A DNA stretch of 64,000 nt from Rhodospirillaceae bacterium. Its GTDB lineage: Bacteria > Pseudomonadota > Alphaproteobacteria > GCA-2731375. Below the pieces are notes generated by a model. The model was not told where the DNA came from. It did no database searches and saw nothing but the letters and a program-made list of their open reading frames with translations. The stretch is from the NCBI GenBank assembly GCA_018660265.1, contig JABJKS010000031.1:124001-188000 (forward strand), written 5' to 3'. Shown here piece by piece: positions 31,830-36,844 of this stretch (positions within the stretch are counted from its first letter, which is position 1; each line of letters opens with the position of its first letter). The position numbers and the translations under genes were made by a program.

Positions 31830-33230
31830 ATGACCGAAAACTCGGTGACGAACCTTTTAAGAAGATATGTCCCTAAGCCGCCCGTCGGCCTGCGCGAGGA
31901 TGATCTGGCCCGCGCCAACCAGCATCTGCTTGAGGCCCTAAGCGCCAATAAGCGGGAGGGATTGTTGCTTGCGATACGGGCCCGTTGGGTCGCATTGGCC
32001 ATCATTGCCGTGCTCCTCCTCTACCTCAATTTCTCGTGGGAGGTGCTGTACTATGAAGCCATATTGGCCGGTTTCGCCTTGATCGGATGGGCGCAGCTGA
32101 GGGCCGGGCGCGTGGCGCAATCCAGGTTGGAATTGTTTCTTATCTTTTGCGATTTGGCCCTGATGACCTTTGTCATGGTTGTGCCCAATCACTTCGCCCA
32201 TGAAACTTGGCCCACGGCGTTTCAGTATGAGTTTGGCGAATTCAGCTATTTTTACGTCCTGCTGGCAGGCGCCACCATGGCCTATTCCTGGCGGACAATC
32301 ATCGCCTTCGGTACCTGGACGACGGGGCTTTGGCTGTTTGCCCTTATCCTGGTAATTCTGTTTGGCACCGAAATCCCGGAACTTACGGAAAAATTGACTA
32401 TCGCTTTCCAGGGTTATGAGAGGATGCTTGAATTCGTCGACCCCAATGATCCACTGGTCCCCGCCCGCATACAGGAAATAGTGATATTTCTGATCGTGGT
32501 GGGCATCCTTGCGCTGAATGGCAAGCGCACCAATCGACTGTTGATCAACCAAGCGGGCGTGGCGCAGGAACGGGCCAATCTTGCGCGTCATTTTCCGCCC
32601 AATATTGTTGACCAGATGGCCACGCGAAATCAGCCTTTGGGGGCTGTGCGCTCGCAGGTGGTTGCGGTGATGTTCGTGGACATCGTCGGCTTCACCGCCG
32701 TGGCCGAACGAAAATCCCCCGAAGACGTGGTCGCGCTGTTGCGGGATTTCCATCAACGCATGGAACGGGCCGTATTCGATCATCAGGGTACCCTGGACAA
32801 ATTTTTGGGCGACGGTTTGATGGCAACATTCGGCAACCCCGATCCGAGCGCACATGATGCGGGCAACGCGCTGCGCTGTGGCCGCGCCATGCTTGCGGCA
32901 ATGGATTTATGGAACCGGGAACGCGGCGAGGAAGGCATTGAACCAATCCAGGTTTCGATTGGTATACACCATGGCACAGTGGTCCTGGGCGACATCGGGT
33001 CGGAACGCCGATTGGAATACGCTGTGCTTGGCGATAGCGTCAACGTGGCGAGCCGCCTGGAAGAGTTGACCCGGTCCCTGGGCGTGCGCATGGCCATGAG
33101 CGATGATCTTGTCGCAGCCATCCGTGACGAACCGGACACAGAAATCGAAGCCTTGCTTTCAGGTTTTGAAAATGCAGGCCCCCAATCCGTGCGCGGACGT
33201 GATGAAAATATAATCGTGTGGACGTCATAA
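31830..33230 (+). CDS. Membrane-bound class III adenylate/guanylate cyclase
   Basis: A 466-residue protein. The N-terminal half has about six hydrophobic helices (roughly 50-230). The C-terminal half is a class III cyclase domain with metal-binding Asp284 in MFVDIVGFT and Asp328 in KFLGDGLMATFG, and the transition-state pair in GDSVNVASRLEELTR. A helical linker with ANLARHFPPNIVDQM joins the two. It should make cAMP (or cGMP) from the membrane in response to an unknown signal. It is followed by a paralogue of the same architecture after 102 bases. Confidence 0.92.
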   Translation: MTENSVTNLLRRYVPKPPVGLREDDLARANQHLLEALSANKREGLLLAIRARWVALAIIAVLLLYLNFSWEVLYYEAILAGFALIGWAQLRAGRVAQSRLELFLIFCDLALMTFVMVVPNHFAHETWPTAFQYEFGEFSYFYVLLAGATMAYSWRTIIAFGTWTTGLWLFALILVILFGTEIPELTEKLTIAFQGYERMLEFVDPNDPLVPARIQEIVIFLIVVGILALNGKRTNRLLINQAGVAQERANLARHFPPNIVDQMATRNQPLGAVRSQVVAVMFVDIVGFTAVAERKSPEDVVALLRDFHQRMERAVFDHQGTLDKFLGDGLMATFGNPDPSAHDAGNALRCGRAMLAAMDLWNRERGEEGIEPIQVSIGIHHGTVVLGDIGSERRLEYAVLGDSVNVASRLEELTRSLGVRMAMSDDLVAAIRDEPDTEIEALLSGFENAGPQSVRGRDENIIVWTS

Positions 33231-33332: not shown

Positions 33333-34745
33333 ATGTCGGAGGCCAGTCGAAACGTCCGCGCGCGTTTGCAGCATCGATCCGAGAGCGCCTTTGCGGAAGA
33401 AGAGCGTCAGGGACTGATGCTGGCCGCCAAGACCAGGACCATCGCCCTTTTGATCCTCCTGGCCTGGCAGATCATCGACAATCCAAACAGCGGATTGGCC
33501 TACGCGTTCGACCTTTCGATACTGATATCTTTTATCTTGCTGGGTCTTCTGCAGTTTCTCTGCGCGAAATGGCGCTTCCATATGGATCTGCTCAAGTACC
33601 TTTTTGTTGCGATGGATTGCGCGCTGCTCGCAGTCGCGTTGACTTTTGAAAATCCGTTCTCCGAGGTCGGGCGGCCGACGGCGTATGCGATGCAGGGAAG
33701 TCTTTTTTCACTGTTCTTTCTCTTTCTGATGCAGAGCGCATTTAGTTTTCGCCAGCGCCTGGTTATGTGGTGTGGTGCATGCATCGTCGCGGCGCGGACG
33801 GGTATGTTGTTGTGGGTGGTCAATCAGCCGGGCGTATTCACCAACATAGATTTACCTGAACGCTCTCCCGAGGCCTTTATTGAGGCGCTGGGCAATCCGA
33901 ATTTCGTTCATCTTGGCCATTGGTTTATCGAGATTATGGCCAGCCTGATCGTCGCCAGCGGCCTTGCGGTCGTTGTTGGGCGCTCGCGGCGCTTAGTGAC
34001 GGACCGTTCGTTGTCGGAACGGGCGAGGGCCAATCTCGCGCGATATTTTTCGCCCAATGTGGTTGACCGCCTGAGTGGTTCGAACGAACTGCTCGGTACC
34101 GTGCGTCAGCAGGATGTCGCGGTCCTTTTCGTAGACATAATTGGTTTTACGAAACTCTGCGAGAGGGAGCCCGCTGCCAATGTGATCGCACTGCTTCGCG
34201 ACTACCATAATCGGCTGGGGCAGGCGGTTTTCGATAATGAAGGCACCCTGGACAAATACATCGGCGATGGGCTCATGGCCACTTTTGGTACACCGGAACC
34301 AGGTCCCAATGACGCCGGCCATGCCCTACAATGCGCATTGGATATGATAACGGCGCTTGCGGCATGGAATGGCGAGCGGACGGCATCAGGTGACAAAGCG
34401 GTGCGTATCGGAATTGGCCTCCATTACGGGCCGGTCATCGCCGGCGATATAGGTAACGAGCGTCGCCTGGAATATGGCGTGATCGGCGATACCGTAAATA
34501 TCGCCAGCCGCCTTGAACAACTTACACGCCAATTGAAGACGCCAATTGTCCTCAGCGATAGCTTGGTCATGGCGATAGACCAAGCCAGTGATGCGAGGCT
34601 GGCAATTTCAAATAACTTCGTAGAGGCCGGTGTACAGCACGTACGCGGGCGAGAGGGCGGCATACCGGTCTGGGTTTTGAAAGCCGAGCCGGATGGCCCA
34701 GGCAATAGACGCTGTATTTCTAACTCGCCGTCACCATGCCGGTGA
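33333..34745 (+). CDS. Membrane-bound class III adenylate/guanylate cyclase (paralogue)
   Basis: A 470-residue tandem paralogue of the preceding cyclase, with about six N-terminal transmembrane helices, linker ARYFSPNVVDRL, and cyclase domain residues Asp268 (LFVDIIGFT) and Asp312 (KYIGDGLMATFG), spaced 44 residues apart exactly as in its neighbour. GDTVNIASRLEQLTR follows. Its last 26 bases overlap the end of the convergent small gene on the minus strand. The two cyclases have diverged strongly in the membrane part, which suggests different signals. Confidence 0.92.
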   Translation: MSEASRNVRARLQHRSESAFAEEERQGLMLAAKTRTIALLILLAWQIIDNPNSGLAYAFDLSILISFILLGLLQFLCAKWRFHMDLLKYLFVAMDCALLAVALTFENPFSEVGRPTAYAMQGSLFSLFFLFLMQSAFSFRQRLVMWCGACIVAARTGMLLWVVNQPGVFTNIDLPERSPEAFIEALGNPNFVHLGHWFIEIMASLIVASGLAVVVGRSRRLVTDRSLSERARANLARYFSPNVVDRLSGSNELLGTVRQQDVAVLFVDIIGFTKLCEREPAANVIALLRDYHNRLGQAVFDNEGTLDKYIGDGLMATFGTPEPGPNDAGHALQCALDMITALAAWNGERTASGDKAVRIGIGLHYGPVIAGDIGNERRLEYGVIGDTVNIASRLEQLTRQLKTPIVLSDSLVMAIDQASDARLAISNNFVEAGVQHVRGREGGIPVWVLKAEPDGPGNRRCISNSPSPCR

Positions 34746-35049
34746 TAGCACCAAAGACTTGAGTCGATATCGAAGCGGGGTCGAGCGCGTCCGTCATATT
34801 TAGATCTGGCCTTGCCGCCTTCAGCGCCTCCAAAGCTGCCGCCGGGTCGCCGTCAATCTCATAGATTGCGAGATAGCGGTGGGCGCCGTCTGGCCCCATC
34901 TGGGCATCGCCCAGTTTGAAGCGCTGGGCCGACTTGAAGCCCGAAAGCTGGCAAATTTCCTGTAGATGAATGTTTGAGTACCATTCGTTAAATTCGTCCT
35001 CTTTCCCTGGAACCGGGTTGGTGAGCACGACTAGGATATTCTCGGTCAT
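34720..35049 (-). CDS. Small EthD/DUF4286-like protein
   Basis: A 109-residue alpha/beta-barrel-like protein beginning MTENILVVLTNPVPGKEDEF with EWYSNIHLQEI, the conserved segment of DUF4286/EthD-like dimeric proteins that also occur in polyketide and aromatic catabolism loci. The ATG at 35049 has GGAGG eight bases upstream, whereas a longer in-frame start lacks one. It lies downstream of the acyl-CoA ligase (35300-36844) on the same strand, separated by the palindromic element. Confidence 0.8.
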   Translation of the reverse strand: MTENILVVLTNPVPGKEDEFNEWYSNIHLQEICQLSGFKSAQRFKLGDAQMGPDGAHRYLAIYEIDGDPAAALEALKAARPDLNMTDALDPASISTQVFGAITGMVTAS

Positions 35050-35176
35050 GGTGGTTTCCTCCCTGTAGGGACGTAAATTTAGCAGGCGGCTTGGCAAAAG
35101 ACACGTTTGTTTTCATCAACTTCGTGTTGTTCGTTTTGCACGCAATAGCGGCTATTACACAACAAGTCTTGAATAC

Positions 35177-35299
35177 CTAGTGGTCCGATTCTAACGGATG
35201 GTCCCCATCCGCTAGGATCGAAAGACCATTAGACTCTTTAGAATCGTGGTGCGCGAGACACGAAACAGAAGGTCTCTTCTGTTTCGCTCGCACCACTAG
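35177..35299. repeat. 123-bp nested palindromic element with terminal inverted repeats
   Basis: The element is bounded by CTAGTGGT (35177-35184) and its exact complement ACCACTAG (35292-35299). Inside are a 7-bp hairpin with CGGATGG (35195-35201) and CCATCCG (35205-35211), a second inverted pair GATTCTA (35187-35193) and TAGAATC (35239-35245), and a perfect 11-bp hairpin with CGAAACAGAAG (35261-35271) and CTTCTGTTTCG (35276-35286). It directly abuts the stop codon of the minus-strand ligase. It could be a MITE-like insertion or a structured 3' end; no poly-T follows as in a standard terminator. Confidence 0.7.
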
Positions 35300-36844
35300 C
35301 TATTCCCTGGCTGGTCCCGGAAACTGTTCGCGCAATATCCGTTTTAATGGTTTACCTGTTGGGTTGCGGGGAATTTCATCGATAAACACGGCGCCTTTGG
35401 GCTGCTTAAATCGGGCTAATTTGCCGTCACAATGTTTCAAGATGTCCGCTTCGGCTAAATTATCATCGTTGCGCACGACGACGGCAAACGGGCTTTCGCC
35501 CCAACGTTCACTGGCCTGGCCTATCACGGCAACATCGGCGACGCCGGGGCAACTCATTATGACATTCTCCAGTTCCGCCGGATAAACGTTCTCACCGCCG
35601 GAAATCACCATATCTTTTACCCGATCATGAATAGTGATAAAACCGTCGGCATCACAAAGTGCGATATCACCTGTGTGGAGCCAACCATCCCGGATGGTTT
35701 CCGCTGTCGCTTTGGGATTGTTCCAGTATCCCTTCATGATATGTGCGCTCTTTACCAGCAACTCGCCCGGCTCGCCCGGTGCGACATCATCACCGGCCTT
35801 GTTCACGACCCGAACCGAGGTATGAAAAAAGCCTTTGCCGGCGGAGCCGATCCGTTCCATCGCGTCTTCTGCGCTAATCATTGTTCCGGGGCCGCATGCT
35901 TCGGTCAAGCCGTAAAGCTGGTGGATTTCCACGCCAATATCGCGGTATTTCTCAATTAGGCTGACCGGGACCGGAGACGCCCCTGACGTGATAAGACGAA
36001 GGGAGGAAAGATCATACTTGTCGAAATCGGGCACCATCAGCATGAAGTTCAGCATCGCGGGGACGGCCAGGGTCGAATTGATCCGCTCGCTTTCTATAAG
36101 CTCCCACATTAGTTTTGGATTGAACTCGCGCATCAAAACCGCAGTCGCACCAGTATATGCGGTCAGGGCGACCGGCAATAATGCTCCTATGTGATACATT
36201 GGCAAGGCGATTGAGTAGCGGTCTTTGGGACGCATATCCCAGGTCGCATTGGCGGTTATCAAGGCCCAGGTCAACGTATTGTGACTATGTTGGGCCCCCT
36301 TTGGCAATCCAGTTGTACCAGATGTGTACATGATAAAAACATCGTCATCCCCCCCTGCGGTAATCTCAGGTGATTGTGTTGATCCGCCGGCGAGCACATC
36401 GTCATAGGCATCGGCGAACAACTGCTGCGTCGCGCCCTGGGAATTTTCGATCCAACACGTAATGTCGGTGTCGTCGCCCCGTCCATGGATTTCAGCGACA
36501 ACTGCGCCAAAATCCCCGCCATAAATTAACGCAACCGCGCCTGCGTCTTTGAGGATGTAAGTTAGCTCGTCAGCCACAAGCCGCCAGTTCAGCGGCACCG
36601 ATATGGCACCAATTTTCGCCAGGCCCATGAAACATTCAAAAAACTCAACGCCATTCATCATCAAAATGGCGACGCGGTCACCCTTCTTAATCCCTTTTGC
36701 CAACATCGCATTGGCAATCGCATTCGCGCGCTCGTCAACTTCCCTGAAGCTGAACCGCCGGTCCGTGGCAACATCAACAATCGCTTCTACATTGGGGTTC
36801 AGATGAGCCCGTTTTCCAAGATAAAGACCGACATTATTCAGCAT
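35300..36844 (-). CDS. Acyl-CoA ligase (AMP-dependent synthetase)
   Basis: ANL-superfamily ligase of 514 residues with P-loop MYTSGTTGLPKGAQHSH, LYGLTEACGPGT for adenine binding, WLHTGDIALCD at the hinge and catalytic Lys in NPTGKPLKR near the C-terminus. It should convert a fatty or aromatic acid to its CoA ester. It ends at the palindromic element and diverges from phoR across 276 bases. Confidence 0.92.
   Translation of the reverse strand: MLNNVGLYLGKRAHLNPNVEAIVDVATDRRFSFREVDERANAIANAMLAKGIKKGDRVAILMMNGVEFFECFMGLAKIGAISVPLNWRLVADELTYILKDAGAVALIYGGDFGAVVAEIHGRGDDTDITCWIENSQGATQQLFADAYDDVLAGGSTQSPEITAGGDDDVFIMYTSGTTGLPKGAQHSHNTLTWALITANATWDMRPKDRYSIALPMYHIGALLPVALTAYTGATAVLMREFNPKLMWELIESERINSTLAVPAMLNFMLMVPDFDKYDLSSLRLITSGASPVPVSLIEKYRDIGVEIHQLYGLTEACGPGTMISAEDAMERIGSAGKGFFHTSVRVVNKAGDDVAPGEPGELLVKSAHIMKGYWNNPKATAETIRDGWLHTGDIALCDADGFITIHDRVKDMVISGGENVYPAELENVIMSCPGVADVAVIGQASERWGESPFAVVVRNDDNLAEADILKHCDGKLARFKQPKGAVFIDEIPRNPTGKPLKRILREQFPGPARE

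Follow-up and report, generated by a model that had tools for sequence, protein, structure and literature searches.

The short repeats that most resemble the element reported here are the CIR of Caulobacter, which Chen and Shapiro reportedly described in 2003. Part of the resemblance lies in GANTC, the CcrM-type site, which is methylated during the cell cycle in the marine bacteria concerned. In the accounts available to us, the Caulobacter CcrM-associated intergenic repeats (PMC2229807, PMC10969869) are about 110 bp long and consist of two arms and a linker, with GANTC motifs, one of them at a terminal loop, TA at the ends, a mobility mechanism given as unknown and no terminal inverted repeat listed (PMC2229807). 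The element described here, a member of a family that we call A, agrees with these accounts in its two inverted-repeat (stem-loop) arms joined by a linker, its GANTC sites, one of them at a terminal loop, its TA termini and its CcrM-bearing alphaproteobacterial host, a likeness of described architecture. As far as the same accounts go, it differs from CIR in having clear terminal inverted repeats, empty sites and a link to the insertion sequences (IS) of the IS630 family.

Other known systems share some of these traits. RUP of Streptococcus pneumoniae, 107 bp long, is likewise short and non-coding, with IS630-family-like ends and a TA target, and its mobilisation by IS630-Spn1 has been proposed; it comes from another lineage and has another sequence, and the available descriptions mention neither a two-arm layout nor methylation sites for it (PMC2229807, PMC3049150). 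ERIC and Correia/NEMIS are also small TA-ended hairpin MITEs in intergenic DNA, but, in the same review, each is a single long stem-loop formed from both ends (PMC2229807), and their hosts are unrelated. Finally, the IS630 family elements themselves, which insert at TA with duplication of TA (PMC2170065, in its available part), have the CTAG/TA target and a similar terminal repeat in common with family A, which lacks a transposase gene. Among the titles and abstract openings of the open literature, we found no paper joining CIR or GANTC repeats to IS630.

We are fairly confident that the element is a MITE mobilised by an IS630-type transposase and inserting at TA within CTAG, with a CIR-like architecture. 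Mobility of this kind is in itself ordinary, and the specialist interest lies in the linking of a CIR-like architecture with IS630 ends and CcrM sites; what is new is a likely mobility mechanism for CIR-like repeats. In family A, CIR-like repeats can be studied together with their terminal repeats, with filled as well as empty sites and nested insertions, and with an IS630 transposase as candidate mobiliser; a CcrM site, moreover, stands in the end motif of both IS and MITE. Two matters thereby become open to testing, the spread of CIR-like repeats in Alphaproteobacteria and the control of their movement by cell-cycle methylation.

Layout and fold of the element

The element lies in a 64-kb stretch of DNA that was analysed as a whole and is called the window below (Table 1). 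Its ends carry the exact terminal repeats CTAGTGGT (35177-35184) and ACCACTAG (35292-35299), and a perfect 11-bp stem pairs element positions 85-95 with 100-110, both as the original prediction had it. Its picture of three nested inverted pairs has to be modified, however: the element is strongly structured, but the main layout consists of two side-by-side hairpins, at element positions 1-56 and 70-120 with a 13-nt linker between them, and the pairing of the outer ends appears as an alternative fold of the minus strand. As single-stranded DNA, the element folds at -35.4 kcal/mol (z -8.1), a stability reached by 0 of 200 dinucleotide shuffles, and the minus strand folded as RNA also gives a z of -8.1.

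Table 1. Features of the element and its surroundings, in window coordinates
Feature	Position	Strand	Remark or basis
Small gene downstream of element	34720..35049	-	weak DUF4286 match, below cut-off
Whole element, family A copy	35177..35299	.	123 bp, target CTAG counted at both ends
Left hairpin	35177..35232	+	56 bp; fold; solo at two host-genome places (L016, L017)
TA, probable target-site duplication, left copy, inside CTAG	35178..35179	.	outer/inner base variation, empty sites
GANTC (GATTC) beside left terminal repeat	35187..35191	.	same distance from end as in IS630 right end
GANTC (GACTC), hairpin/linker boundary	35232..35236	.	site scan
Linker	35233..35245	+	13 nt; related TCTTAAG linker joins both hairpins of sibling family B
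GANTC (GAATC) in linker	35241..35245	.	site scan
Right hairpin	35246..35296	+	11-bp perfect stem 35261-35271 / 35276-35286; fold
Right-hairpin loop	35272..35276	.	GANTC in 22/33 copies; lost in window copy (GTCTC)
TA, probable target-site duplication, right copy, inside CTAG	35297..35298	.	outer/inner base variation, empty sites
Acyl-CoA ligase-type gene, AMP-binding and C-terminal domain, intact	35300..36844	-	stop codon abuts element

Across family A copies, the stem structure is kept, with compensatory changes. In the 33 distinct copies used for this count (out of 35 full-length ones, L012 and L033 being left out for their indels), the two-hairpin structure of the window copy is paired in 94.1% of cells, and pairing falls to 32-42% when the partners are slid along the alignment. 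Changes on both sides of a stem amount to 22 cells, as compared with 9.2 in shuffles, none of the 500 shuffles having as many, although one double change (C-G to G-C, columns 86/109) makes up 14 of these 22 cells and may be a single event. An RNAalifold consensus fold on a MAFFT alignment gave only 24 pairs and 4 compensatory cells.

The stop codon of the ligase gene, on the minus strand at 35300-35302, does adjoin the element, as had been pointed out, and so stable a structure directly behind it could be read as a conserved terminator, or a structured RNA, peculiar to this locus and belonging to that gene. We give this reading next to no credence: the element is a dispersed multi-copy repeat, which refutes anything specific to the locus, no T-run stands on either side of it (35150-35330), again as first noticed, and where the ligase gene is compared with its homologues in relatives, the DNA similarity sets in near the stop codon and does not reach into the element. 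A Rho-independent terminator was rejected for the same hairpin without a T-run, and no Rfam family reaches threshold, the single sub-threshold match lying outside the element. Elsewhere in the window, two adjacent paralogous ORFs stand on the plus strand (31830-33230 and 33333-34745), whose C-terminal halves, by eye, look like class III nucleotidyl cyclase domains (VDIVGFT/VDIIGFT).

Copies and distribution of family A

A search of the host genome, that is, the one from which the window comes, gave 22 matches, which fall on 19 distinct places; at 12 of these the copy is near full length (118-123 bp), at the other 7 it is partial, and three of the matches are reverse-strand readings of the palindromic left hairpin. 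The copies are dispersed and their flanks unrelated, which bears out the MITE-like insertion proposed in the original prediction: the element is short, encodes no transposase and is present in several dispersed copies. Nor is it a single copy held at one locus in distant relatives, since, beyond the unrelated flanks, three orthologous sites in a relative are free of it. The MITE-like interpretation is thus supported, and to it we add a likely IS630-type mobiliser, the TA/CTAG target, the GANTC content and the CIR-like architecture.

Family A occurs in six of the 11 genomes of the genus (the host and five others), in 6 of the 15 genomes reached in an order-level draw, and, in another draw, in none of 50 genomes taken from outside the genus. 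A 21-base pattern matched 20 stretches in the genome collection, all from five alphaproteobacterial MAGs (SI072_bin164, BS150m-G9, PW10.maxbin2.068, PW8.maxbin2.065_sub and OFTM58), while the plasmids and viral contigs searched, a set apart from the phage and E. coli collections, held no family A match. Shorter relatives exist as well, namely the two solo left hairpins of Table 1, a solo right hairpin (L097) and, in several genomes, an 85-89-bp class with a clipped right hairpin.

Insertion sites and target

Empty sites were sought with a composite of joined flanks from 11 copies in a relative that has no family A match (G006). Six host-genome loci were examined there, and at three of them the empty target is readable, as CTAC (L004), CTAA (L012) and TTAG (L010), the filled sites reading CTAG...CTAG or a mutated form of it. 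At L006 the relative is element-free but the junction has diverged, leaving no readable target, and at L008 and L002 there is no alignment across the site; the same holds for L023 against L104 and L001 against L100, and the junction of L010 is gapped in a second relative (G009). What is more, one genome contains a nested insertion, in which the internal CTAG of a family A copy has received an element of the sibling family B (L178). CTAG is scarce in the window, with 28 occurrences as opposed to 58 expected from trinucleotides.

Which bases are duplicated upon insertion? All empty sites contain TA and are, in themselves, compatible with a duplication of either 2-bp TA or 4-bp CTAG. One could therefore think of a MITE of a transposase that duplicates four bases (CTAG/YTAR), such as an IS5-type DDE enzyme instead of an IS630-type one, with which the three empty targets agree and for which it also speaks that most copies read CTAG at both ends. 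However, a count over the full set of 35 family A copies and over 30 of family B, the latter being those within loci already retrieved as distinct from all B matches, finds the base outside TA off consensus at 17 of 130 ends, as opposed to 1 of 130 for the base inside (Fisher p 9e-5). It is this difference that favours TA over CTAG; copies such as L146 (TTAG...CTAC) fit a TA duplication too, and the only IS seen with these ends, in a search whose scope lay outside IS5-type transposases, belongs to the IS630 family. We consider four-base duplication improbable and infer that the duplication is probably one of 2-bp TA, the element then starting with G.

A start with G has a consequence for genes. 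Where the target TA is part of a TAG stop codon, a G as the first base inside the element restores that codon, so that insertions at the 3' ends of genes can be nearly harmless; this also explains in a simple way why elements lie behind stop codons. L004 is an example: the TA used there comes from the stop codon (TAG) of the right-hand gene, whose C-terminus, GGRLNLA, stays as it was because the element end rebuilds TAG, and the C-terminus of the left-hand gene goes from LRQV to RVVRF with the insertion.

IS630-type insertion sequences as probable mobiliser

Three genomes of the genus (G001, G002 and G007) contain an IS of about 1.26 kb that is bounded by CTAG, a target for which Tenzen and Ohtsubo reportedly noted a preference of IS630 in 1991, going by their title. 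Its two ORFs, as listed for the G002 copy, overlap around an A-run and match the IS630 family model, the second one above cut-off (NF033545 at 1.4e-42). After TA, its right end CTAGTGGTCTGAATC and the MITE left end CTAGTGGTCCGATTC are alike at 10 of 12 positions (IS GTGGTCTGAATC, MITE GTGGTCCGATTC), whereas none of the 3,641 TA-flanked 12-mers of the window reaches even 9 of 12. The MITE right end agrees with either genus IS end at only 7 of 12 positions. A related IS in another family (G317), with 80-84% amino acid identity, has CTAGTGGTCTG[A/C]ATC at both ends, and one further locus (L247 in G108) matches the IS end motif, with no transposase found beside it.

In the host genome, an intact IS630 with these ends was not found, only a remnant whose right end has diverged (L144), maybe because IS copies are missing from draft assemblies; two other remnants there with DDE_3 have no recognisable terminal inverted repeat, and none of 53 pattern matches in this genome, at up to one mismatch, is an autonomous element with both family A ends. 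Presence of IS and MITE is also uneven across the genus: in G007 the IS is not accompanied by any copy of family A, and G003 and G010, rich in family A, gave no DDE_3 match.

The two hairpins in inverted arrangement also recall a REPIN, in which paired REP hairpins are moved by a RAYT, a Y1 tyrosine transposase, and the host genome does have three RAYT-like Y1_Tnp genes of 222-230 aa (L075, L076, L077). Yet family A flanks none of the three, the best match beside them being a chance one of 10 bp, and to our knowledge neither a duplicated TA/CTAG target nor IS630-like ends would be expected for Y1. This origin is disfavoured and, in our judgement, highly improbable.

Under mobilisation by IS630, a borrowed IS630-type transposase would act in trans on family A, recognising the GTGGTCYGANTC-type end and excising the element, which would then insert at TA, preferably within CTAG, presumably with duplication of TA. 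The body of the element comprises two palindromic hairpin units and a linker, with up to four GANTC (CcrM) sites, one of them beside the terminal repeat.

GANTC sites and CcrM

The family A consensus has four GANTC sites, at columns 11, 56, 65 and 96 (the last in the right-hairpin loop), and the window copy keeps three of them. Family A copies average 2.88 sites, or 23.4 per kb, as against 36 sites in the whole 64-kb window where 241 would be expected (0.56 per kb, 0.15 of the mononucleotide expectation); three of these 36 lie in the element, and the host-genome flanks of the copies have 0.60 per kb. The host encodes a CcrM homologue, an ORF that matches CcrMI (6pbd) at 3.1e-155, and the RAMA domain (CcrM) is present in 10 of the 11 genus genomes. 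Scarcity of GANTC with intergenic enrichment is, in the available part of PMC3973325, general in CcrM-bearing Alphaproteobacteria.

Could the element then be a regulatory repeat maintained by the host, as speculated for CIR, be it for CcrM or GcrA control through GANTC or as a hairpin that processes or terminates transcripts at 3' ends, its mobility being incidental? The density of GANTC in the copies, the conserved stems and the neighbouring ORFs, whose 3' ends face the copies on 18 of 24 sides (12 host-genome copies, rough longest-ORF call), would suit such a role. That said, retention across the copies stands at 58, 79, 79 and 67% for the four sites and at a median of 79% for all similar element windows, in other words the sites decay like the rest of the element, and there is thus no sign of post-insertion selection on them. 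Family A does show the conserved GANTC motifs of CIR, with one at a terminal loop, though they are no better conserved than their surroundings. With the three sites empty in the relative and no T-run present, we regard host maintenance as very improbable.

An IS630-mobilised MITE that carries CcrM sites suggests, as a hypothesis, that GANTC methylation might regulate transposition, by analogy with the hemimethylation control known for IS10 and Dam (PMC5371812, in its available part). A wider and, on balance, doubtful extension of the same analogy is that the CIR-like repeats of Alphaproteobacteria form a broad class of two-hairpin, IS630-mobilised MITEs with CcrM sites in their transposase-binding ends, whose transposition might be licensed by GANTC that is still hemimethylated once the replication fork has passed, in much the way that IS10 is gated by Dam in enterobacteria. 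If true, these elements would be a main mobile source of new cell-cycle methylation sites beside genes in genomes that avoid GANTC.

Sibling families and the wider class

The end motif CTAGTGGTCYGANTC has 28 matches in 10 of 385 genomes of the class, 16 of them in eight genomes outside the genus. A reversed control pattern matched about 20 genomes, mostly once each, which is more genomes than the real motif, and single matches (e.g. in G043, G135 and G289) may therefore be due to chance; likewise, GANTC at offset 10 in these matches is no independent evidence, as the pattern has it built in. On context, we used only four genomes for the wider class: G317, with the related IS, G325, with seven matches in two-hairpin elements of about 170 bp, G094, with a 59-bp solo hairpin, and G229, with three copies of a 123-bp element that has two hairpins and CTAG at offsets 0, 49 and 119. 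The G229 element is identical to family A at 64-67 of 123 positions without gaps, and the loop of its right hairpin carries GANTC at an offset identical to that in family A, the only site of the wider class that is independent of the search pattern. Judged by these sequences, elements of the same layout occur in other alphaproteobacterial families.

Within the genus, the sibling family B is about 105 bp long (CTAGAGCA...TGCTCTAG) and has a TCTTAAG-type linker as in family A; examples are L190:712-816, L178:268-372 and many further loci. It is present in all 11 genomes, several of which have at least about 40 copies, and a first look at G007 gave up to 313 candidates; although found without reference to GANTC, family B carries a mean of 1.77 such sites per 105 bp (30 copies). 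A third two-hairpin repeat, 107 bp long, lies at L190:2087-2193 (CTAGAGCAACCCGC...ATGCGCTAG) and overlaps the end of the IS630 element by one CTAG that belongs to both. Another IS630-type locus (L185:57-80) adjoins CTAGAGCATTTCCG, which is like the hairpin end of some family B copies, and may be the mobiliser of that family.
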